Made by a program: the position numbers and the translations under genes. DNA of 22,019 bases, taken from a virus. Below, piece after piece: positions 10,923-21,336 of the stretch. The notes under the pieces are model-generated. The model ran no database searches. It was not told where the DNA came from and saw nothing but the letters and a program-made list of their open reading frames with translations. The number at the start of each line of letters is the position of its first letter. Position 1 is the first letter of the stretch. Location of the stretch: positions 1 to 22,019 of the IMG/VR virus record IMGVR_UViG_3300044516_001285; one strand, given 5' to 3'.

Positions 10923-11090
10923 TTATTTTTTGATTTCCAATTTTTCTCCGTTAACTAATCGTTGGGTACATTGCCAACAAGTTACCGAAGTTGCATTGTT
11001 ATCAACTCGTTCACAGATGTTATCACAATATTTACATTGTAATTTTTTAAACCCACGTTGATTGGGAGCAAGTCTTGCTTTTTTTGCCAT
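10923..11090 (-). CDS. Zinc-ribbon microprotein
   Basis: I found this 55-residue frame by reading the gap. It starts MAKKARLAPNQRGFKKLQ, with ATG at 11090 and TAA at 10923. Cysteines fall at 19, 22, 26, 38 and 41; CKYC (19-22) and CWQC (38-41) form a two-knuckle zinc ribbon spaced by 15 residues. The N-terminus is basic, so nucleic acid or RNA polymerase contact is possible. It fills the space between the HD gene and the 59-residue gene on the same strand. Such tiny zinc-ribbon proteins occur near gp55 in T4-like phages, but I cannot assign a role. Confidence 0.75.
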   Translation of the reverse strand: MAKKARLAPNQRGFKKLQCKYCDNICERVDNNATSVTCWQCTQRLVNGEKLEIKK

Positions 11091-11104: not shown

Positions 11105-11284
11105 TTATTCGCGATCAATATAATAACGGGCTGAATCTAATTTCTTTAAAGCTCTTGACAAATTGTCTAGAGCAGATTCTTTATCTATTTTACCCTCTTC
11201 TAACATTTTGCCAGTAACTCTAACAATTTCTCGAGCATCTTCGATATCGTCTGTAATTTTTGCTTTGAATTTGTAATGTGCCAT
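11105..11284 (-). CDS. Small helical protein, unknown
   Basis: This is a 59-residue frame with ATG at 11284 and TAA at 11105. It begins MAHYKFKAKITDDIEDAREI and ends LKKLDSARYYIDRE; it is charged and almost wholly helical, with no cysteines or membrane segment. AAAGGAAATAAAGTT before the ATG gives a good ribosome site, and the ATATTTATA element at 11302-11310 suggests its own promoter just after the uvdE stop. It is followed by the zinc-ribbon gene. I do not recognise the family; a small regulator or inhibitor protein is only one possibility. Confidence 0.75.
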   Translation of the reverse strand: MAHYKFKAKITDDIEDAREIVRVTGKMLEEGKIDKESALDNLSRALKKLDSARYYIDRE

Positions 11285-11301
11285 AACTTTATTTCCTTTA
11301 T

Positions 11302-11310
11302 TATAAATAT
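11302..11310 (-). promoter_or_regulatory. ATATTTATA candidate phage promoter
   Basis: The minus-strand copy begins 26 bases before the ATG of the 59-residue gene and is followed by ATAAAGGAAATAAAG. It sits right after the uvdE stop. Confidence 0.42.
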
Positions 11311-12338
11311 TAAGATTCTAAAATCAATGCCCTATTTTGAGTGCATTCTACGCCTACACGCATCAAAGCCTGCTCTTTTGCCTTTGCTTCTACCATAATA
11401 TCTAAATCATCAACGCCATAAGACTTTGGTAAGTCTAAAATAAAGTCAGCATGAGCCTGTTCTTTGATCTTGGTAAATTCTTTGTATTGTTTGTGGAAGG
11501 TTGGATAATCTTCAATGTTATCCATAGAGATACCATGATGCTCAAACATACGTTCTACCATGGTTTGATACTCTCTACGACGAGATTCTGAATAATGGGT
11601 ACATTGAGTCACACCATGCTTCTGCCAAGTGCTACGAGCCATCAAAAAGGCTTCTTCTTCAGACAAATCACCGGTATTGAAAGTGTGGTGCCAATAATCA
11701 AATGTAATTGGAATATCAATTTGAGAATGAACACGCTCATATAAGTCACGCACTGAATACATTGATGCCTTGTCATCATTCTCGATAACTAAACGAGCTT
11801 TGCATGAATCTGACAAACGATCGTAATTTTGCAACCAACGCTCAATTGTAGCATCTTTGTCGCCATAAGTAGAACCAATATGAATATTGATCTTGTTTTC
11901 AAAGCTAGGAGCAAAGCCCATCATATCAAATAATTCAGAATGGCGTTCTAAACTAACCAAACTATTATCAACAACATGGTCTTGCGGACTACCTAGAATA
12001 TGAAATGGACCAGGGTGGGTTGTAATGCGATGGTTATGAGCCTTAGCATAATCACCTGCTGCACGAAGATGTTGTGCAATTTCTGCAATCTGCGGAAGTT
12101 CTTCTAGGCGATAATGATTCCACCTAGGAAATAATTCTGAACCCAAACGAAACAATGTAATGCCATTTGCTTCATTCCATTCTAGAATAGTTAACAAGTC
12201 ACGGGCATTTGCTAATGCAATCTCGCCGGCCAATTGTAAACCACCTTGTTGAAACTTTTTGTCAATCATTGTTCGACCTGTGCGAATATTTTTTGCACTC
12301 AACTCTGTGTTGATGCAGGCATAACCGAATCTTATCAT
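11310..12338 (-). CDS. uvdE: UV damage endonuclease (UvdE/UvsE family)
   Basis: The 342-residue protein is a UvdE-type TIM-barrel endonuclease, which nicks DNA 5' to UV photoproducts and abasic sites using a metal cluster. It begins MIRFGYACIN, the family's first strand. Candidate ligands and motifs are TTHPG (His108), NIHIGS (His153), LVIENDD (Glu186), FDYWHH (Asp214, His217) and CTHYSES (His248). Length is within the usual range. It stands at a divergent boundary, 83 bases from the plus-strand gene at 12422. Its coding sequence looks richer in G+C than the structural genes (28 of 60 in 12001-12060 against 12 of 60 in 4201-4260), which may point to later acquisition. It would repair virion or intracellular phage DNA. 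Confidence 0.93.
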   Translation of the reverse strand: MIRFGYACINTELSAKNIRTGRTMIDKKFQQGGLQLAGEIALANARDLLTILEWNEANGITLFRLGSELFPRWNHYRLEELPQIAEIAQHLRAAGDYAKAHNHRITTHPGPFHILGSPQDHVVDNSLVSLERHSELFDMMGFAPSFENKINIHIGSTYGDKDATIERWLQNYDRLSDSCKARLVIENDDKASMYSVRDLYERVHSQIDIPITFDYWHHTFNTGDLSEEEAFLMARSTWQKHGVTQCTHYSESRRREYQTMVERMFEHHGISMDNIEDYPTFHKQYKEFTKIKEQAHADFILDLPKSYGVDDLDIMVEAKAKEQALMRVGVECTQNRALILES

Positions 12339-12409: not shown

Positions 12410-12418
12410 ATATTTATT
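12410..12418 (+). promoter_or_regulatory. Near-copy of ATATTTATA motif before cargo operon
   Basis: ATATTTATT ends 3 bases before the ATG at 12422. That is much closer than the other copies, so if it acts as a -10-like element the message would be nearly leaderless. No AAGGA is present before this ATG. The 83-base gap also faces uvdE on the other strand. Confidence 0.3.
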
Positions 12419-12421
12419 AAT

Positions 12422-13546
12422 ATGATACAATTAAAATCATTATTCAATGAACAAGGAGCTGTAATGCGACAAGGGCCATCTGACCCTAACGCAATAAAAG
12501 GGGCATTTAATGCACAGCGAATTGCTCAACAAATATATGATGCAAAAGGCACTTTTTCAGATGATGAAGAAAAAGTAATGCCAGCAATACAAGCAATAAA
12601 AAATACCAAACAATATATTGAAGTTAATAAAGAATTACAAAAATTAACTGGCGGTCGTGGGATGGGTGAATATCTAACTAGTTTTTTAGATATCAATCCG
12701 AGATTAATGATTGCTAGTTATTTATTACAATTTATACCTGCAAACCAATGGGGCTGGACAATTAAAAAAATAGTTCCATGGAATGACTTTAGAACAGTAG
12801 CACAAAACGATCCGAGTATATATGATAAATGGAAAGCTGGTGAAACTAGTATAGGAGAAGAAAAAGCTCTTATTAAATTGATGAATGGTCCATATAAACA
12901 AGCTTGGTCTAAATGGAGTTCATTATCAGCTGGGGAACAATTGAATGCTTGGTGGAAAGATAATGGACATACAGTTTTAACAGTATTACAAATCGGCACA
13001 GCATTTCTCCCGGTTATAGGATGGGCAGTGTCAGCAGGTATTGGATTAATTGATGCAAATGAATATCGAAAAGAGGGCGATCCTAAAACAGCTGGACTTG
13101 TTGCTTTATTTTCAGTGATGCCAGGTATTGGTAAACTTGTACAAAAAATACCTGGAATGAATCAATTAGGCAAAAAAGGAATGTCACTATTAGCTAAAAA
13201 ATTGAGTATAGCAAAAACTACGGCTGTGAAATTTTCAGCTGTTGAAATGGAAGTTATCAATGAATTAGCTAAAAATAATATCTTTATCAAACAACAAATT
13301 GAAGTGTTCTTAAAAACAGGAATTGCTAAAAGTGCAAAACAAGTTGCTGCATCAAAGGCAAAATCATATGTAAAATCAGGATTACTTAATTTTGCAAAGA
13401 TTGCTGCTCCAGTAGGAGGCGCATTAGGTGTTGCAGCAGGATATAATTATACATACGATTCAGCAACAGCAGCAACGCCAGAACAAATACAACAACAATT
13501 GTTACAAGATTTGGATCAATTATATAAACAAGAAATGAAAAAATGA
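12422..13546 (+). CDS. Putative internal virion protein with leader, annexin-like module and hydrophobic core
   Basis: The product has 374 residues. It opens MIQLKSLFNEQGA; SLFNE at 6-10 resembles the Leu/Ile-x-Glu sites cut by T4 prohead protease gp21, so a mature N-terminus at Gln11 is inferred. Residues 37-90 (KGTFSDDEEKVMPAIQAIKN, then YIEVNKELQKLTG) match the GTDE...I..IK...QY..VN..L...TG pattern of annexin-like helical repeats. Residues 183-240 are hydrophobic and Gly/Ala-rich (TVLTVLQIGTAFLPVIGWAV, then SAGIGLIDANEYRKEGDPKT), similar to pre-toxin linker regions in bacterial polymorphic toxins. A second hydrophobic patch is near 325-340. ATG at 15 (12464) follows a strong AAGGAG but would drop the leader, so 12422 is preferred. 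It is coupled to the next gene by ATGA. Confidence 0.8.
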   Translation: MIQLKSLFNEQGAVMRQGPSDPNAIKGAFNAQRIAQQIYDAKGTFSDDEEKVMPAIQAIKNTKQYIEVNKELQKLTGGRGMGEYLTSFLDINPRLMIASYLLQFIPANQWGWTIKKIVPWNDFRTVAQNDPSIYDKWKAGETSIGEEKALIKLMNGPYKQAWSKWSSLSAGEQLNAWWKDNGHTVLTVLQIGTAFLPVIGWAVSAGIGLIDANEYRKEGDPKTAGLVALFSVMPGIGKLVQKIPGMNQLGKKGMSLLAKKLSIAKTTAVKFSAVEMEVINELAKNNIFIKQQIEVFLKTGIAKSAKQVAASKAKSYVKSGLLNFAKIAAPVGGALGVAAGYNYTYDSATAATPEQIQQQLLQDLDQLYKQEMKK

Positions 13547-14277
13547 GTAACTCAAAACAATCATTAAATGAATTAAACCCATTGGAATATGCAGCAGTTA
13601 TTTCCATAGGTGGATTAGCTATAAAAGGCATTGCTGCAGTAATTGCCAGAAAACTAGCAAAAAAATACGGCGTATTGGAACGTGGAAAAACATTGTTATC
13701 TTATATGTGGAACCGTAATAAATTAAAGGCAGCTGGAGTAACAGATAATGAAATGGGTGCTTTATATGCAAATGGCGGAGCAGCTATAGTTGATTTAGGC
13801 AAACAATTTACAAAAGAAGTCTTTGAGAAAGTTAAAGCAGGTAAAATAACTCCAGAACAAGCAATTAATGATTTAGATGGTATTATTCCTGAATCTGCTA
13901 GACAGGATTGGCTGAAAAAATTTAAAACAATTGCACCTGCAGGAGCGAAGGCAGGATCATCAATATTGAAGGCTACATATAGTAAAATAGTCGGACCTGC
14001 AGTTACTAAAGATGTAATGGAAGCAGCTCTTACTAAGGTATATGGAGCTGAAGGTCTTGCTAAGGCTAAACGTGCATATCAAGTATATTTAGATCAATAC
14101 AATGCCGGCAAATTAGTAGTACCATTTAAAAATAAATCTATATTTCCCAATATAGATGATTGGACTGCTGCTACTGGATGGAAACCTAAAAATCCTAATT
14201 TAGGATTCAATGACAAATTAATGCAACAAAAAAGTGCATATCGTTGGCATAAACTTATATGGACATTACATCACTAA
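13543..14277 (+). CDS. Putative internal virion protein partner, unknown family
   Basis: The 244-residue product overlaps the upstream stop (ATGA), so the two are probably made together. It begins MSNSKQSLNELNPLEYAAV. LNE at 8-10 could be a protease site but is weaker than in its neighbours, since the next residue is Leu. Residues 16-36 form a hydrophobic, membrane-like segment (YAAVISIGGLAIKGIAAVIA), followed by a basic stretch. The rest is helical, with GKITPEQAINDLDGI near 106-120, and ends in an aromatic basic tail (YRWHKLIWTLHH). I do not recognise a family. Pairing with the 374-residue protein suggests a membrane-interacting injected pair; this is inference. Confidence 0.75.
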   Translation: MSNSKQSLNELNPLEYAAVISIGGLAIKGIAAVIARKLAKKYGVLERGKTLLSYMWNRNKLKAAGVTDNEMGALYANGGAAIVDLGKQFTKEVFEKVKAGKITPEQAINDLDGIIPESARQDWLKKFKTIAPAGAKAGSSILKATYSKIVGPAVTKDVMEAALTKVYGAEGLAKAKRAYQVYLDQYNAGKLVVPFKNKSIFPNIDDWTAATGWKPKNPNLGFNDKLMQQKSAYRWHKLIWTLHH

Positions 14278-14290
14278 GTTATATAATGTA

Positions 14291-14299
14291 ATATTTATA
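14291..14299 (+). promoter_or_regulatory. ATATTTATA candidate phage promoter
   Basis: The plus-strand copy begins 41 bases before the ATG of the 200-residue cargo gene, in the 54-base gap after the 244-residue gene. Confidence 0.42.
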
Positions 14300-14331
14300 T
14301 TTAAAATAGAAAAAACATTCAAAAGGAAATT

Positions 14332-14934
14332 ATGATTAAATTAAAAAACATATTACAAGAAAATATGCGTAGCTTCGGAACTAAGAATTTATTAACCGAA
14401 CAAGGAGCAGCTATTGAATTAATAGGTATGCCTCAAGTTAAAGCTGCAACGCAATTCTTTAAAGCAGCATATGATAAGCAAGTACCTGCTCCTAATTACA
14501 TATTAGGACAATATTATTTGAAAACAAACCCGACAGATTTTAACGCTGACGTTCGTAAAAATTATTTCGGTAAAGTTTTAGGTTTTGGACTAGTTCGATT
14601 CGGTACAATGACTATACCATTGTTAACCAATGGCGCGCAAGACGAAGGCGGATCATTTCAATTTAACCCGGACCAAGTTACCCCGCAAGGGTATGACCTA
14701 GCATGGAAGGAATTGAGATTCTACTCGGAACCTTTTGGTCCTGTACCTAAAGATTCCGCAGGCATGGCGAACAAAATTAATGCAGCATTTAATCAAATAC
14801 CATTAAAAGATATTCAAGCTATGTATGCTGCAACAAAGAATAAATATAACGCGCAAATTGTAGCATTCAAAGCATCGAAAGCTCCAGTATTAGCATTATT
14901 GACAGGAAATGCTAAAGCTTTCTACGGAGTATAA
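14332..14934 (+). CDS. Leader-bearing virion cargo candidate, paralogue 1
   Basis: This is a 200-residue protein. Residues 1-23 form a leader, MIKLKNILQENMRSFGTKNL then LTE. It shares the E-N-M-(x)-R/S-F-G-T-K-N-L core with the next proteins and ends in LLTE|QGA. The body from residue 30 on is paralogous to the next gene: MPQVKAATQFFKAAYDK, then YILGQYYLK, NQIPLKDIQAMY and a final LLTGNAKAFYGV. No known domain or catalytic motif is apparent and there is no membrane segment. ATATTTATA at 14291-14299 and AAAGGAAATT before the ATG give transcription and translation signals. I infer a scaffold-targeted internal protein whose leader is removed on maturation. Confidence 0.8.
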   Translation: MIKLKNILQENMRSFGTKNLLTEQGAAIELIGMPQVKAATQFFKAAYDKQVPAPNYILGQYYLKTNPTDFNADVRKNYFGKVLGFGLVRFGTMTIPLLTNGAQDEGGSFQFNPDQVTPQGYDLAWKELRFYSEPFGPVPKDSAGMANKINAAFNQIPLKDIQAMYAATKNKYNAQIVAFKASKAPVLALLTGNAKAFYGV

Positions 14935-14947
14935 ATAAAAGTAAAAT

Positions 14948-15004
14948 ATGAAGAATCTTTTATCAGAAAATATGATGCGATTTGGAACTAAGAATTTATC
15001 TGAA
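14948..15004 (+). repeat. Shared 57-base leader-coding cassette, copy 1
   Basis: The first 19 codons of the 203-residue gene match copy 2 at 54 of 57 bases, and the three differences are silent. Outside this stretch the two genes are not alike. This points to a mobile or recently copied leader module. Confidence 0.85.
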
Positions 15005-15559
15005 TCAAACATTAGAAACATTAATAAATCTTTATTAACTGAAGGGGAAGTTGATTTAATGAAACTTCCGCAAGTTGCCGCAGCAACAAAATTCTTTAAA
15101 GCTGCGTGGGATAAGCGAGTTCAAAAACCTAGTTATATATTAGGTCAATATTATTTAAAATCTGATCGAGAAACTAACTTCGAAACTGCATATCGTTATA
15201 TGGGAAGTGTAGTTGGTTTTAAATTAGCTAGATTCGGAACCTTAGTATTACCAGTTCCAGATTTATATATGGGTGGTAGATGGCAATTTGAAGGTACTGG
15301 AGCAAATGGTCCAATCGGCTTCAGTCAATTAATGTGGGATACTTCAGCTATAACTATAGAACCAAATATAAAGCCAGCTGATGCAGCAGCTTGGATCAAT
15401 GAGGTATTTAATCAAATGCCACTTAAAGATATCCAAGCATTATATAATGCTTCGCCAGGAAAACCAAAATATGATACATATATTGCACAGTTAAAAACAG
15501 CAACAACTCCAATTAAGCCATTACTAACTGGCAATGCTAAAGCATTCTTTGGTGTATAA
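14948..15559 (+). CDS. Leader-bearing virion cargo candidate, paralogue 2
   Basis: This 203-residue protein starts 13 bases after its paralogue. Its first 19 residues, MKNLLSENMMRFGTKNLSE, are identical to those of the gene at 16281. The leader continues to SLLTE|GEV (Glu32), giving three Leu-x-Glu sites (LLSE, NLSE, LLTE). The body aligns with the 200-residue neighbour over LPQVAAATKFFKAAWDKRV, YILGQYYLK, VVGFKLARFGTLVLP, NQMPLKDIQALY and LLTGNAKAFFGV. The middle (about 95-125) differs most. No enzyme motif is visible. A hairpin terminator follows 22 bases after the stop. Function is unknown; internal virion cargo is inferred from the leader. Confidence 0.8.
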   Translation: MKNLLSENMMRFGTKNLSESNIRNINKSLLTEGEVDLMKLPQVAAATKFFKAAWDKRVQKPSYILGQYYLKSDRETNFETAYRYMGSVVGFKLARFGTLVLPVPDLYMGGRWQFEGTGANGPIGFSQLMWDTSAITIEPNIKPADAAAWINEVFNQMPLKDIQALYNASPGKPKYDTYIAQLKTATTPIKPLLTGNAKAFFGV

Positions 15560-15580
15560 ATAAAAAATATATAATGTAGG

Positions 15581-15607
15581 ATAGGGGCTTTAATTAGCCC
15601 CTATTTT
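15581..15607 (+). terminator. Hairpin terminator between convergent genes
   Basis: ATAGGGGCT at 15581-15589 pairs perfectly with AGCCCCTAT at 15596-15604 across a 6-base TTAATT loop, and a T run follows (15604-15607). It lies 22 bases after the plus-strand stop at 15559 and just before the minus-strand stop at 15609, so it can end plus-strand transcription. The minus-strand side has no immediate T run and is weaker. Confidence 0.8.
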
Positions 15608-15608
15608 A

Positions 15609-16151
15609 CTATTCGATAAAACATTGTGCACATTCCACATCGATGTTAATATTATTAAAGGTTAATACCGACCAAGTGTCTGAAAAATCTTTAATCATAA
15701 TAACATGATCAATTAAATCTGGAATACCGGTATTATATAATTCTAAGATTTCAATTGTCTGAATATTATTTTTAAAATCATTAACATCTAAACTAAATTT
15801 TCCTACAATTTTCCTAGTATGATTAAATGTTGCTGTTAAGACCTCATCTGCATTTTTATCTGACATATAATCGTATCCATTAGAAAAATACATTGTGTCT
15901 GGAATTAATTTAAAGTATCCATGATTCCATTTAGTAAATCGATCATATGCTGAAATAAATGAATCTTTAATACTAGATTCTAATTTATTAACACGGCCGG
16001 AAACAACCATATTTCTAACGTGTGCTCCTGTATATTCAATACCGTAACGGTCTAATACTGCATTTTCAACTTCATTTAACATCGTAAATGTTATTTGCGA
16101 ATATGTAACAGAATTAATTGCAATGGCTAATACTAATAATAACTTTTTCAT
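15609..16151 (-). CDS. Secreted protein with signal peptide, unknown (moron-like)
   Basis: The 180-residue protein begins with a clear signal peptide, MKKLLLVLAIAINSVTYSQ, with likely cleavage after the SQ seen in many Bacteroidota exported proteins. The mature part (about 160 residues) is mixed alpha/beta, with FSLDVNDFKNNIQTIEILEL near 118-137 and CAQC near the C-terminus (two cysteines, possible disulphide). No family is recognised. It is the only minus-strand gene between plus-strand cargo genes. It has its own AT-rich upstream region and a terminator just past its stop, so it looks like an independently expressed cargo gene. Export to the periplasm or surface and modification of the infected cell are inferred, not shown. 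Confidence 0.8.
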   Translation of the reverse strand: MKKLLLVLAIAINSVTYSQITFTMLNEVENAVLDRYGIEYTGAHVRNMVVSGRVNKLESSIKDSFISAYDRFTKWNHGYFKLIPDTMYFSNGYDYMSDKNADEVLTATFNHTRKIVGKFSLDVNDFKNNIQTIEILELYNTGIPDLIDHVIMIKDFSDTWSVLTFNNINIDVECAQCFIE

Positions 16152-16245
16152 CTCTTTTTAATTTAACTGATTAACTATTTAATTATACTATATAATAAGA
16201 AGAATAATTCATGAATCCAATCTATATGGTATTTTAATTTTGCTT

Positions 16246-16254
16246 ATATTTATA
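16246..16254 (+). promoter_or_regulatory. ATATTTATA candidate phage promoter
   Basis: The plus-strand copy, continuing as ATAAAG, begins 35 bases before the ATG of the 206-residue cargo gene. It lies in a divergent gap, where it is the clearest signal facing the plus strand. Confidence 0.45.
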
Positions 16255-16280
16255 ATAAAGAATTTTAAAACAAGGAAAAT

Positions 16281-16337
16281 ATGAAGAATCTTTTATCAGA
16301 AAACATGATGCGATTTGGAACTAAGAATTTGTCTGAG
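16281..16337 (+). repeat. Shared 57-base leader-coding cassette, copy 2
   Basis: The first 19 codons of the 206-residue gene match copy 1 at 54 of 57 bases (AAT/AAC, TTA/TTG, GAA/GAG are the only changes). The genes differ fully downstream. Confidence 0.85.
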
Positions 16338-16901
16338 GCAGCTCAGAAAGAATTAGTTATAAAATCAATTATGGAAACTATTGAACAACATGGATTATAT
16401 AATGTAATTCGTAAAAAATTATCAGAACAAACAACAGTAAAACCAGGTGCAAAGGTAAATGTTGATTCACCAAGTAAAGGCCTAGTAGCAATGCCAGTGC
16501 CTACGGATTCAAAAACACAAGGTATGGCATCTAAAATTATCGGTGGCATAATGAAAGCAACAGGCGGAATTGATGATAATAAAACAGTACAAAGTTTAGT
16601 ATATTCAATTAAAACACCGGAACTATATTATGCATGTTTATATATGGTTGCACATTCTCCTGCAGTTAAAGCAAATTATGGTTTTAATTTTAGTACGGTT
16701 TGTAACATGTTAGGACAAGATATGACCCATGCAGCTGGTGCGAAAGGCGCATATGCTCCAGGTAGTAGAATTAAAATGGATTCTCCAGGTGCAATGGTTG
16801 CAAAAGCAACAGGCTATGAAGGTATGTATAGAGATATCGAACGTCACTTGCAACAATTCAATTTAGAGGAAGAATTACCAACAGAAAAAAATAATGCTTA
16901 A
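16281..16901 (+). CDS. Leader-bearing virion cargo candidate with annexin-like module
   Basis: The product has 206 residues. Residues 1-19 (MKNLLSENMMRFGTKNLSE) are identical to the leader of the gene at 14948. The leader region continues as a helix to RKKLSE|QTT (Glu49). After a Pro- and Lys-rich linker (51-80), residues 93-148 hold a predicted helical module: ATGGIDDNKTVQSLVYSIKT, then YACLYMVAHSPAVKANYGF. It resembles the annexin-like unit of the 374-residue protein (G...DDE..V...I..I). The C-terminal part (HLQQFNLEEELPTEKN) is acidic. ATATTTATA at 16246-16254 and AAGGAAAAT before the ATG are the signals. It ends at a strong bidirectional terminator. Confidence 0.8.
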   Translation: MKNLLSENMMRFGTKNLSEAAQKELVIKSIMETIEQHGLYNVIRKKLSEQTTVKPGAKVNVDSPSKGLVAMPVPTDSKTQGMASKIIGGIMKATGGIDDNKTVQSLVYSIKTPELYYACLYMVAHSPAVKANYGFNFSTVCNMLGQDMTHAAGAKGAYAPGSRIKMDSPGAMVAKATGYEGMYRDIERHLQQFNLEEELPTEKNNA

Positions 16902-16905
16902 ATAA

Positions 16906-16940
16906 AAAAAAGCCCCTTCCTAATAAGTTGGGGCTTTTTT
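16906..16940. terminator. Bidirectional hairpin terminator
   Basis: AAAAAAGCCCC at 16906-16916 pairs perfectly with GGGGCTTTTTT at 16930-16940 over a 13-base loop. The A run on one side and T run on the other make it a working rho-independent terminator on both strands. It separates the plus-strand gene ending at 16901 from the minus-strand gene ending at 16958. Confidence 0.88.
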
Positions 16941-16957
16941 ACTGTTATATAACTAAA

Positions 16958-17239: not shown

Positions 17240-17824
17240 TTAATCTTTTTTTACGAATCCATTTAAAAAGTCTCGTTGCTTTTGAATTGCAACATCTAAC
17301 TCTGTTGGCTCTGCAACTTTTCGTTTTCTTGTATTATTTGCAGTGTTTCTTGCAGCGCTAGATTTAGTATCCACTTTTGTGCTAGATCGTTTGGATCTTG
17401 CTTTTGTATCTTTAACAATAATACTTGTAGAATCTGATCCGCTTTCTCTACTATCAGCTGCGATTTTAGTTGCTGACCCTCCGGTGATAATAGAAACTGT
17501 TTTAATTGGTCTTGATTTGGGTTGATTTCGCTCGGTTTCAATGCGTCTCGTGAGTTCGTCTTGTCCAATTGACTTTGTGGTTTCATAAAGGATGTATCCA
17601 ACGCTATACGACGTCTTTTCGTTCTGAATCTCCATACCACACGGATAATTCGTTTTATCAACTGATTGAACCGTATATTGAATACCCCAACCAACTTTTT
17701 TAAATTTAGTAACATAACCACATTGTTTTTGACCCATCCAAGAAAAGAAAACCGCTGCTCCTGATTGGAACTGCGGCTTCTCAAATTTTTTCTGAACGGC
17801 ATCTGTTATTTTTTGTTTTGCCAT
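17240..17824 (-). CDS. Basic phage protein, unknown
   Basis: The 194-residue product has an N-terminal globular half (FQSGAAVFFSWMGQKQCGYV at about 19-38, then VGWGIQYTVQSVD) whose strand pattern suggests an SH3-like barrel. A low-complexity Ser-, Thr-, Lys- and Arg-rich tail (about 120-170, including KARSKRSSTKVDTKSSAA) follows, with a short helix at the end (IQKQRDFLNGFVKKD). The basic tail could bind nucleic acid. An overlapping frame on the same strand (17296-17802) is its shadow and lacks its own start signals. It is directly downstream of the 146-residue gene. No family is recognised. Confidence 0.75.
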   Translation of the reverse strand: MAKQKITDAVQKKFEKPQFQSGAAVFFSWMGQKQCGYVTKFKKVGWGIQYTVQSVDKTNYPCGMEIQNEKTSYSVGYILYETTKSIGQDELTRRIETERNQPKSRPIKTVSIITGGSATKIAADSRESGSDSTSIIVKDTKARSKRSSTKVDTKSSAARNTANNTRKRKVAEPTELDVAIQKQRDFLNGFVKKD

Positions 17825-17830
17825 TTGATT

Positions 17831-18271
17831 TTAATTAGTGCATATAACTGATACCTGATTGATTATATTAAATACCCTTAGATATCTAGTAATTTTATCA
17901 CGCTTAAACATTTTCTCCATTTCTTTATCTCTACGAAGAATATATCCAGACTCAAAGAAACGATATACAATTTGCCGTACTGATCTGATACTATTAGATT
18001 CAACCATTATATTTTCATCATCTATCATGACTTCAACATAATCAGCACCGGCCGGCAATTGTTTAGGACGTTCATCATATTGAGCAGATTCAACTAATGA
18101 TTCTTTAATCATATCAAATACGCGTCCTAAATCAATTCCTTTTGATTCTCGGATCAAAGCCCCTTCATACAATTCAAACAAGAATTGCATTTTTTCAGCT
18201 TTTGGAAGTTTTTTGAAGTAACTATATTCTGCATAGTTAACTTGCATTGTATCAAATACTGATTTCATCAT
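17831..18271 (-). CDS. Helical phage protein, unknown
   Basis: This is a 146-residue, mostly helical protein beginning MMKSVFDTMQVNY (two adjacent ATG codons, so the start could be 18271 or 18268). The middle has a beta pair (YVEVMIDDENIMVESNS), and the C-terminal third (SVRQIVYRFFESGYILRRDK, then EMEKMFKRDKITRYLRV) is basic. No motif that I know is present. Its start lies inside the 3' end of the 59-residue gene (20-base overlap), so it is likely translated from the same message. Function is unknown. Confidence 0.75.
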   Translation of the reverse strand: MMKSVFDTMQVNYAEYSYFKKLPKAEKMQFLFELYEGALIRESKGIDLGRVFDMIKESLVESAQYDERPKQLPAGADYVEVMIDDENIMVESNSIRSVRQIVYRFFESGYILRRDKEMEKMFKRDKITRYLRVFNIINQVSVICTN

Positions 18272-18431
18272 TACGCACCTGTTTTATTTCAAATAAACTT
18301 ATAACTGCGTCAAGTGGCAGTCTTTTAATTTCCATGACCATAGTCTGGGCTTCATCTAAGTTATTTGCATTTACTCGGCCAATAACTTCTCTTGAAGAAT
18401 CTGATTTATAATAATACACATACGTTGTCAT
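18252..18431 (-). CDS. Small alpha/beta protein, unknown
   Basis: This 59-residue frame was read directly, with ATG at 18431 and TGA at 18252. It begins MTTYVYYYKSDSSREVIGRV and continues with helix-rich LDEAQTMVMEIKRL and a final strand (AVISLFEIKQVR). A strand-helix-strand arrangement is likely. An ATATTTATA element at 18451-18459 lies 20-28 bases before the ATG in the same orientation as at other starts. It overlaps the start of the next gene by 20 bases, which supports it as real. Function is unknown. Confidence 0.65.
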   Translation of the reverse strand: MTTYVYYYKSDSSREVIGRVNANNLDEAQTMVMEIKRLPLDAVISLFEIKQVRNDEISI

Positions 18432-18449
18432 AAGCGTGCCTATATTTTA

Positions 18450-18842
18450 TTATAAATATAAACCTAGCTCATATCCTTTGATAGCTGAGTTAAGTGAATC
18501 ATTCAATGTTTCGAATAATTTTCCAATTTCCATTCTAGTTAGCATAAATACACGCCCTTTAATAGAAACTTCAAATGTCTCAGTTTTAGCAGTACGTTCT
18601 GCATATAAATTAGTAGACAATGTTCCTATTGATTTCGTATAAGAAATTAAATCTTTATAACGCATAGGAATCGAAGTGGTTACTACGTGTAGTGAACCCA
18701 TTGTTACATTCATTGGATCTTCCCGGAAGACTTCTGCAGAAATTTTAGATTCGAATGTAAAATCTAAGTCTGCCCATGTATTGCCGTAACGATTTCTCAT
18801 TTTGTCGCTAATAGCCCATGGTTGATTGATACTTGTTGTCAT
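18450..18842 (-). CDS. Phage protein, unknown
   Basis: The 130-residue product begins MTTSINQPWAISDKMRNRYG. It continues with beta strands (DLDFTFESKISAEVF, then NVTMGSLHVVTTSIPMRYKD, then TFEVSIKGRVFMLTRME) and a C-terminal helix (KLFETLNDSLNSAIKGYELG). There is no membrane segment or cysteine. It follows the methyltransferase gene closely on the same strand (5 bases). The family is not recognised and no function is proposed. Confidence 0.75.
   Translation of the reverse strand: MTTSINQPWAISDKMRNRYGNTWADLDFTFESKISAEVFREDPMNVTMGSLHVVTTSIPMRYKDLISYTKSIGTLSTNLYAERTAKTETFEVSIKGRVFMLTRMEIGKLFETLNDSLNSAIKGYELGLYL
18451..18459 (-). promoter_or_regulatory. ATATTTATA candidate phage promoter
   Basis: The minus-strand copy begins 28 bases before the ATG of the 59-residue gene at 18431 and is followed by ATAAAATA. 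It overlaps the last codons of the upstream 130-residue gene. Confidence 0.4.
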
Positions 18843-18847
18843 TTTTG

Positions 18848-19507
18848 TTAGAATTTATAAATTAATACTGTATATACGTCATTTGCGTAGTTATGTCGAA
18901 TTGTTACATATCGATATTTTTCAATCAACATATCCATCACTAAACCAGGATGTACATAAAAGAATCCTTCGTGGTGTTGGTTGTTAATTGGCGACAATAA
19001 ATTAAATGCTACTACAGAACCAGCTGCATCATACATTAACTCAATGTCATTGAATAATTTTTGAAGATCTTTATCTTCAGTATCACATCTTCGTTGTGTG
19101 AATACCCCCGATGCTACTACCCAATCATATGTATTTAGTTTGACAGGTGGTTTCTCAAAAGCTCCGGTGATGATATCATATCCATATTTTTGTTTAGCTA
19201 AATCTGCCATTAATGGATTATGATCAATTCCAGTATATGGAGGATGTTCTCCATAAAAATCATTAATGAAGTTACACATATCCGCTCTACCACATCCGAT
19301 GTCTAAAATTGTTTGTGTAGGCAAATATCCTACTAATAAGTTTTGAAACAAATAATGTTGTTCATTTGTATCATGATATCCTACTGGCTTTGGACTATAT
19401 AACATATAATCTAAATCAGTCGGTTGTAAGCCATCCCAATACTGTTTCGTTTCGTCTGGGGCATCAAGGATACTAGTTATCTTGTTTTGTATATCTTCTT
19501 GTTTCAT
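18848..19507 (-). CDS. Class I SAM-dependent methyltransferase
   Basis: The 219-residue protein has the Rossmann-type motifs. Motif I is ILDIGCGRAD at 67-76, an acidic residue after the second strand is in YTGIDHNPL (Asp95), and YDWVVASGVF at 127-136 takes the place of motif IV/post-II. VVAFNLLSP at 165-173 and VLIYKF at the end fit the later strands. The substrate cannot be told: there is no DPPY/NPPY motif of DNA adenine methylases and no Pro-Cys motif of cytosine C5 enzymes. Small-molecule, protein, or cap/glycan-type substrates are open. The ATG overlaps the upstream stop (ATGA). Confidence 0.9.
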   Translation of the reverse strand: MKQEDIQNKITSILDAPDETKQYWDGLQPTDLDYMLYSPKPVGYHDTNEQHYLFQNLLVGYLPTQTILDIGCGRADMCNFINDFYGEHPPYTGIDHNPLMADLAKQKYGYDIITGAFEKPPVKLNTYDWVVASGVFTQRRCDTEDKDLQKLFNDIELMYDAAGSVVAFNLLSPINNQHHEGFFYVHPGLVMDMLIEKYRYVTIRHNYANDVYTVLIYKF

Positions 19508-20335: not shown

Positions 20336-21151
20336 TTACTTGTTTTTTTCTAGTTCTTTTTGCAAACGCTTTTGTGATCTATGAAATTCATATGATTGAC
20401 GAATGTGTTTAGCTGACAAATCGAAGTTAACTTGCAAATTATCTAAAATATCAGCAATTAAACGTTCTTTTTCGAATGTCGTTTTAGTATTTCTAAGCAT
20501 TGCATCAATAATTCGTTCTAGATGACGAATATATTGCTTTGGTAGTCGACGTAAAACTCTAGATTTTGAAATGTGTATTTCAACTTCTTGCTTTTTAGTG
20601 TCTTTTTTTTCAGAAATCAGCTGTTTTGCAACAGTAACTGTCTCTTTTAATACATCGCCATACTTAACAACCCACGCAACTTCCGGTGCTGGTGGAGCTG
20701 GAGGTGTTTCTTCGGCACCAGGAGTAGGAGCAGCGCCACCACCTGCGGCTCCTACCTGAGCTTTTTCTTTATCTGCGTCGCCTAATCCAGCAACATCATC
20801 TAATGATAATTGCAATTCCAATGTATAATCAGTATTTCTTCCGAATCCGGTATATGGAACTACTTTAATAATGTTATGTCGTATTAAACTTAAAAGAATT
20901 CCTGGAGTGATATTCAAATCAGCTCCACTTCTTGTTATGAATTCACGAACCCCAGCATCGCTAGGAGAATATAATATACCTAAATGACGCGAACCATATG
21001 CATCAAATTTACCTAAAAACTTTTCTTCTGCTGGCGTAAATGGTGAGTCTACTGCATCTTTCGGAGCGTTGTCGGTAACTTTTGCTGGCCCAGTTGCTTG
21101 TTCAGCAATTAGTGTGCGTAAAGTTTGTTGTATATTATATTTAGTTTCCAT
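20336..21151 (-). CDS. Leader-bearing phage protein, possible virion cargo
   Basis: The 271-residue product begins METKYNIQQTLRTLIAE|QAT. A 17-residue amphipathic leader ending in LIAE is strikingly like the FIAE end of T4 internal-protein leaders. Residues 38-120 look like an ordered helical domain (FTPAEEKFLGKFDAYGSRHL, then DLNITPGILLSLIRHNIIKV). An Ala/Gly/Pro-rich linker at about 132-155 joins it to a charged helical C-terminal domain (SKSRVLRRLPKQYIRHLERI, then HIRQSYEFHRSQKRLQKELE) that is strongly basic. It directly follows the Hc1-like gene (stop and ATG adjacent). An internal DNA-binding virion protein would fit, but this is inference. Confidence 0.75.
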   Translation of the reverse strand: METKYNIQQTLRTLIAEQATGPAKVTDNAPKDAVDSPFTPAEEKFLGKFDAYGSRHLGILYSPSDAGVREFITRSGADLNITPGILLSLIRHNIIKVVPYTGFGRNTDYTLELQLSLDDVAGLGDADKEKAQVGAAGGGAAPTPGAEETPPAPPAPEVAWVVKYGDVLKETVTVAKQLISEKKDTKKQEVEIHISKSRVLRRLPKQYIRHLERIIDAMLRNTKTTFEKERLIADILDNLQVNFDLSAKHIRQSYEFHRSQKRLQKELEKNK

Positions 21152-21336
21152 TATGCTGCTTTTGCTTCTGCTAATTGAGTTGAACGATATTTGCTAACTA
21201 ATTTTTTCATCTCATTAATTGATTTGCGAGCTCTAACGCCTGCAGCTTTAACTTGTTTTTCTTGAAAGCGATCATGGTTTTCTTTAAATGTTAACCAATG
21301 TGCTTCCATTGCTTCATAGATTTCTTGTGATGTCAT
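21151..21336 (-). CDS. Histone H1-like protein, Hc1 family
   Basis: This is a 61-residue basic helical protein. Residues 17-61 (FKENHDRFQEKQVKAAGVRA, then RKSINEMKKLVSKYRSTQLA) closely follow the Bacteroidota Hc1 pattern, FEAFAKDA..Q.EKGNKAAG.RARK.SL.LEKL.KEFRK.S...AK. The KAAGVRARK core at 30-38 is the clearest part. Members of this family bind and compact DNA. The phage copy lacks the long Lys/Ala/Pro tail of eukaryotic-type H1. AAAGGTTAAT precedes the ATG and an ATATTTATA element lies at 21354-21362. It could shape phage or host DNA, or be packaged; the location of action is not shown. Confidence 0.8.
   Translation of the reverse strand: MTSQEIYEAMEAHWLTFKENHDRFQEKQVKAAGVRARKSINEMKKLVSKYRSTQLAEAKAA

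Follow-up and report, generated by a model that had tools for sequence, protein, structure and literature searches.

An N-terminal leader with tandem gp21-type sites shared by unrelated, putatively head-packaged proteins of a T4-like phage

Leader-bearing genes in a variable gene island

The window analysed here is a whole virus contig of 22,019 bases. From end to end, it matches positions 37938-59956 of G008, a contig of 72,273 bases, at 100% identity. The larger contig encodes a terminase, a T4-type portal, an S77 (gp21) prohead protease, a gp22-like scaffold, and a gp23 capsid protein. As its capsid protein shares 57% identity with its counterpart in Flavobacterium phage immuto and 39% with the one in Rhodothermus phage RM378, we grouped the source phage with the Far-T4-like phages, to which it appears to belong by sequence; a T4-type gp23, an S77 protease, and a portal are likewise found in Far-T4 phages and immuto (Immutovirus). 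The host is probably a member of the Bacteroidota, which is also suggested by signal peptides ending in SQ (see below). The following features of the window are considered:

11310..12338, minus strand: left flank of the island, phage endonuclease gene (PHROG 8420 endonuclease, E=5.5e-41)
12410..12417, plus strand: ATATTTAT element upstream of gene 12422
12422-13546, plus strand: gene for a 374-aa protein; leader MIQLKSLFNE at 12422..12451, cut predicted after E10
13543..14277, plus strand: 244-aa gene inside the cluster; N-terminus MSNSKQSLNELNPLEY, no matching leader
14291..14298, plus strand: ATATTTAT element upstream of gene 14332
14332-14934, plus strand: gene for a 200-aa putative cargo protein; leader MIKLKNILQENMRSFGTKNLLTE at 14332..14400, sites LQE10 and LTE23
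14948-15559, plus strand: gene for a 203-aa putative cargo protein; leader at 14948..15043, residues 1-32 ending in LLTE, sites LSE7, LSE19, and LTE32
16246..16253, plus strand: ATATTTAT element upstream of gene 16281
16281-16901, plus strand: gene for a 206-aa putative cargo protein; extended 49-aa leader at 16281..16427 ending in KKLSE, sites LSE7, LSE19, IME32, and LSE49
17240..19507, minus strand: right flank of the island, genes for 194-, 146-, 130-, and 219-aa proteins with syntenic homologues in other contigs
20336..21151, minus strand: gene for a 271-aa protein; N-terminal METKYNIQQTLRTLIAE, then Q after the predicted cut, no ENM core

The flanking genes of this island are constant in several contigs, and its content is variable. 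The endonuclease gene of the left flank, UvdE-like as judged by eye, also borders the island in G001, G002, G004, and G011.

All five leader ends listed in an earlier note on this DNA were recovered, i.e., SLFNE|Q (12422), LLTE|Q (14332), LLTE|G (14948), KLSE|Q (16281), and LIAE|Q. Two corrections apply to the gene set: the distant gene at 20336-21151 is located on the minus strand, and the gene at 13543-14277 is leaderless and probably not a member of the family. A core, ENM-RFGTKNL-(S/T)E, had been ascribed to three of the genes. It is present in exact form, LLSENMMRFGTKNLSE, in 14948 and 16281, and as a variant, LQENMRSFGTKNLLTE, in 14332; the leaders of 12422 and 20336 are without it. The 12422 leader matches a short-leader class, M(I)(K/R)LKxLLxE, with Phe at position P3 and therefore a weaker site. 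The 271-aa protein, in which the ENM core is absent, is the weaker case for membership; its homologues retain the L/V-x-E-Q site.

Regarding the protein bodies, the products of 14332 and 14948 proved to be paralogues as proposed (51% identity), and the 14332 body contains no hydrophobic-x-E. In the 16281 protein, E49-Q50 is invariant in six relatives. This protein had been described as annexin-like, an assignment that found no support: it lacks a Pfam annexin match, its structure model (pLDDT 52) gave no PDB match, and an annexin repeat was found neither by profile nor by fold. Its relatives display a GxGTD motif only.

Leader architecture and occurrence across phages

A degenerate DNA pattern for ENMxRFGTKN retrieved at least 120 stretches from viral contigs, and another pattern that targeted the ENML form retrieved 84 stretches that partly overlap with the matches of the first. 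Within the fetched loci, the core was found 285 times, in 278 cases at the N-terminus, i.e., no more than 16 residues from a Met start, which is far beyond chance. After removal of identical proteins, the tag M-KN(I/L)LAENM-RFGTKNLSE formed the N-terminus of 194 non-identical proteins, which fall into at least 82 body groups without a blastp link between bodies; this number is conservative, since the second largest group is held together by an extended leader and not by the body. The pattern search thus bears out the earlier suggestion that different proteins have a leader with a tandem motif in common.

Two features outside the search pattern recurred in the first leader set, namely a flanking L at -2 (62/62) and a hydrophobic-x-E at +10 to +12 (54/62). 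Position P3 of the first site was hydrophobic in 82/82 leaders (always Leu in the first set, 62/62), a second hydrophobic-x-E followed exactly 12 residues past the first Glu in 70/82, and 54/82 had a third site within 30 residues. Later sites were mostly followed by Q, S, A, or D. The L/I-x-E sites are of the T4 gp21 type and flank the tag core, with another marking the junction between leader and body. Some proteins with different bodies share an extended leader, approximately 50 residues long, and in the 14332/14948 family one body type is combined with leaders that have at least three different lengths, whose LLxE at the junction does not vary. In the AlphaFold model of the 14948 protein, all residues up to 32 except residue 6 have pLDDT values below 50, and beyond this point the fold is mostly confident; we therefore placed the leader/body boundary at LLTE|G. 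Comparison of this fold with PDB and BFVD gave nothing below E=0.001.

Two further leader families were identified. In immuto (NC_055915.1), a phage available as an isolate, four genes (gp003, gp076, gp077, and gp092) carry not the ENM form but a parallel leader, MxNFDLKKFLVENKLTxNSKLLxE, whose Glu sites are 12 residues apart like those of the ENM leader, and which accompanies 41 body groups among the fetched loci. The second is the short-leader class mentioned above, which was found at 37/985 start Met residues vs 6/4320 internal ones. It was observed on approximately 32 proteins of seven contigs, including G008 60434-64805. Among these are proteins with lysozyme, M23, LysM, and GDSL domains, and some that look kinase-like by eye. 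For the members with lysozyme, M23, or LysM domains, a role in the tail or in lysis is possible, as is a false-positive match to the pattern.

None of 76 cargo representatives had a match in Pfam or PHROGs. When 50,697 phage records (INPHARED isolates) were searched by tblastn with the 23-aa leader, no ENM form was returned, a negative result that is meaningful because the immuto leader recovered its own phage in the same search (E=4e-8). The leader-core DNA pattern was absent from 84,980 bacterial and archaeal genomes. The leader had been noted as lacking a known description; consistent with this, a literature search for the motif string gave no match, the papers searched hold no description of the leader, and the passages searched of the Far-T4 paper (PMC4360716) mention no such leader.

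Protease genes, upstream element, and site depletion

The prohead protease presupposed by the earlier reading is encoded by the window-identical G008 and contains the GELDHP and SSRG motifs. Among the larger contigs with the ENM or the parallel leader, an S77 protease was found in 21/25 (10/12 plus 11/13), where the independent contig number is somewhat below 25 with G008/G009 and G004/G012 as probable near-duplicates. The capsid protein gp23 was likewise present in 21/25, and contigs without S77 (4/25) or gp23 may be fragments. The N-terminus of gp21 has its own LxE...LxE pair with the 12-residue spacing of the leader (7/7 contigs examined), QLV(K/R)E|(A/S) is conserved around residue 57 of gp23, and gp22 contains L/I-x-E sites above expectation. 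A conserved small protein is encoded between gp21 and gp22 (G008 11273-11722 and homologues); with its N-terminus LKKLYRDFFGLTE|(Q/A), it is likely another core protein that contains a gp21-type site.

Bodies exposed to such a protease are expected to avoid internal L/I-x-E. Relative to same-phage controls, the ratio of [LI].E was 0.62 in ENM-leader bodies (P=5e-5), 0.66 in parallel ENK-leader bodies (P=1.5e-3), and 0.51 in short-leader bodies (P=8.5e-5), with P values that treat sites as independent; the depletion is significant, yet not a total absence. The motifs [LI].D, [LI].K, E.[LI], and [LI]E were not depleted in the same body sets vs the same controls, and the contrast between [LI].E and E.[LI] reached P=1.6e-6 for the three leader sets pooled. 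As [LI]..E was also lowered (0.66) in two of the three sets, part of the [LI].E depletion may be due to fold or composition. For the short leader, depletion was obtained with the strict pattern; a loose pattern, which was only about twofold above background at N-termini, gave none. As a positive control, T4 IPI, IPII, and IPIII each contain exactly one [LI].E, located at the capsid-targeting sequence (CTS), which parallels the depleted bodies described here.

The ATATTTAT element is present in the 60 nt preceding 67/82 leader genes (82%) vs 19% of other genes, and among the latter it is found in forward orientation 174 times and in reverse 13 times. It also precedes the genes for portal, neck, and sheath (neck and sheath named by eye). 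We regard it as a putative late-gene element. The T4 late promoter TATAAATA showed no sense-orientation enrichment.

Proposed head loading and alternative explanations

The tandem sites, the conserved junction, the depletion in bodies, the upstream element, and the model with a disordered leader agree with the earlier reading of a capsid-loading leader, on the basis of sequences and models. We consider it very probable that the leader serves as a propeptide for capsid targeting, which gp21 removes and which is found on a large and variable cargo repertoire that would be ejected with the DNA. Late in infection, the leader-bearing proteins would be made alongside head and tail proteins. The leader, with its helical hydrophobic start and ENM-RFGTKN core, would bind the assembling prohead core, by which the cargo would become enclosed. 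The S77 (gp21-type) protease would then cut after Glu at the tandem L/I-x-E sites of the leader and at the leader/body junction, and the mature body, freed in the head, would be ejected into the host cell along with the DNA, like T4 internal proteins. Predicted packaging into the head and cleavage are well supported by sequence; core binding, actual cleavage, packaging, and injection are steps that we infer, and the cargo would presumably act on host defence or takeover. The few T4 internal proteins that have been characterised block Type IV restriction enzymes.

Alternatively, the leader-bearing proteins could be components of the prohead core or scaffold, which are cleaved and mostly leave the head or stay in it, without delivery to the host. 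The protease logic would then be that of T4 gp22 and gp67, and the upstream element is indeed common to leader, head, and tail genes. However, we regard this as unlikely, since the bodies are depleted of L/I-x-E and scaffold is enriched, the bodies at the syntenic island vary highly between phages, unlike core proteins, and at least one body has a confidently predicted fold. It is very unlikely that the leader targets the host membrane, the tail, or another phage compartment, with incidental L/I-x-E sites: an amphipathic leader start and the cell-wall hydrolase domains of some short-leader proteins would fit such a destination, but not the two gp21-type sites spaced exactly 12 residues plus a junction site, the motif-specific depletion in bodies, or the co-occurrence with S77. 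Scarcely credible is a spreading genetic element (promoter/ribosome site plus recombination patch) without function at the protein level, as, despite a 72-bp repeat (93%) that links 14932-15003 with 16266-16336 and includes the ribosome-binding region, and despite over-used ACT and AAG codons at two positions, 78/82 leader cores are distinct as DNA with a protein sequence invariant at several positions, and leader codon use otherwise varies about like the genome background, which points to selection on the peptide.

The preferred reading, a head-loading propeptide, was compared with known systems. T4 gp21 cuts after L/I-X-E, and a 10-residue CTS is enough for packaging (PMC9026906); T4 Ip1-3 have only the leader in common and are injected (PMC12373910). 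Unrelated internal proteins sharing a CTS are thus already known for T4 (PMC9026906, PMC12373910). Similarities to T4 IPI-IPIII include a short leader at the N-terminus that terminates in L/I-x-E (MKTYQEFIAE|A and ITE|A in T4), mutually unrelated bodies, and an encoded gp21-type protease. In contrast to the T4 CTS, which it does not resemble by eye beyond the amphipathic start and I/L-x-E, the leader described here has an invariant ENM-RFGTKN core, two to four sites, and a length of about 19-50 residues, and it is found on at least 82 body groups, whereas at least ten Ips are reported for T-even phages (PMC12373910). As it is not homologous to the T4 CTS, we classify the leader as a functional analogue and not as a homologous member. 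The ejection proteins of phiKZ, 201phi2-1, and SPN3US also belong to head proteins with N-terminal propeptides that a gp21-related protease cuts after Glu, often at several sites (PMC9026906, PMC10052503). However, their site is S/A-x-E or A-x-E, and their propeptides are usually long and do not form a tag common to many unrelated proteins. Novel aspects of the present work are the leader, its tandem sites, the repertoire size, and the two further leader families.

It is quite possible, if short of probable, that the ENM-RFGTKN core acts as a portable tag for head loading, which a dedicated receptor in the prohead core would recognise, with any new protein recruitable as cargo by 5' recombination; that the tagged proteins make up a very large set of anti-defence or takeover proteins that are injected and wholly undescribed; and that at least three unrelated tag families arose in T4-type phages. 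The tag provides a sequence handle for putative injected proteins whose bodies match nothing in Pfam or PHROGs, and the at least 82 body groups, listable from sequence alone, can be tested for counter-defence. A defined loading tag would also be a tool to study prohead assembly outside T4, and, if the reading is true, a large hidden set of phage weapons is exposed in T4-like uncultivated phages.

Regarding gene order, a variable gene array adjoins a DNA-repair gene in both systems, which applies to denV beside ipII/ipIII in T4 and to the endonuclease that looks UvdE-like here; denV and UvdE represent unrelated UV-repair families. Within the window, a convergent gene (15609-16151, minus strand) encodes a small protein with a Bacteroidota-type signal peptide ending in SQ and alternates with the cargo genes. 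The same alternation was observed in G001 (127021, 128374, and 129696), G011 (51485 and 52887), G004 (49242 and 51829), and G002 (32916), and the small signal-peptide proteins include one with a CAP domain and one with DUF2927. Adjoining the gene for the 271-aa protein, a 61-aa protein (21151-21336, minus strand) matches histone H1-like Hc1 (PF07432, E=1.2e-10). Furthermore, 36 bp at the end of the 16281 gene (16909-16944) are exactly matched upstream of gp22 (G008 10951-10986), possibly as a shared terminator hairpin.
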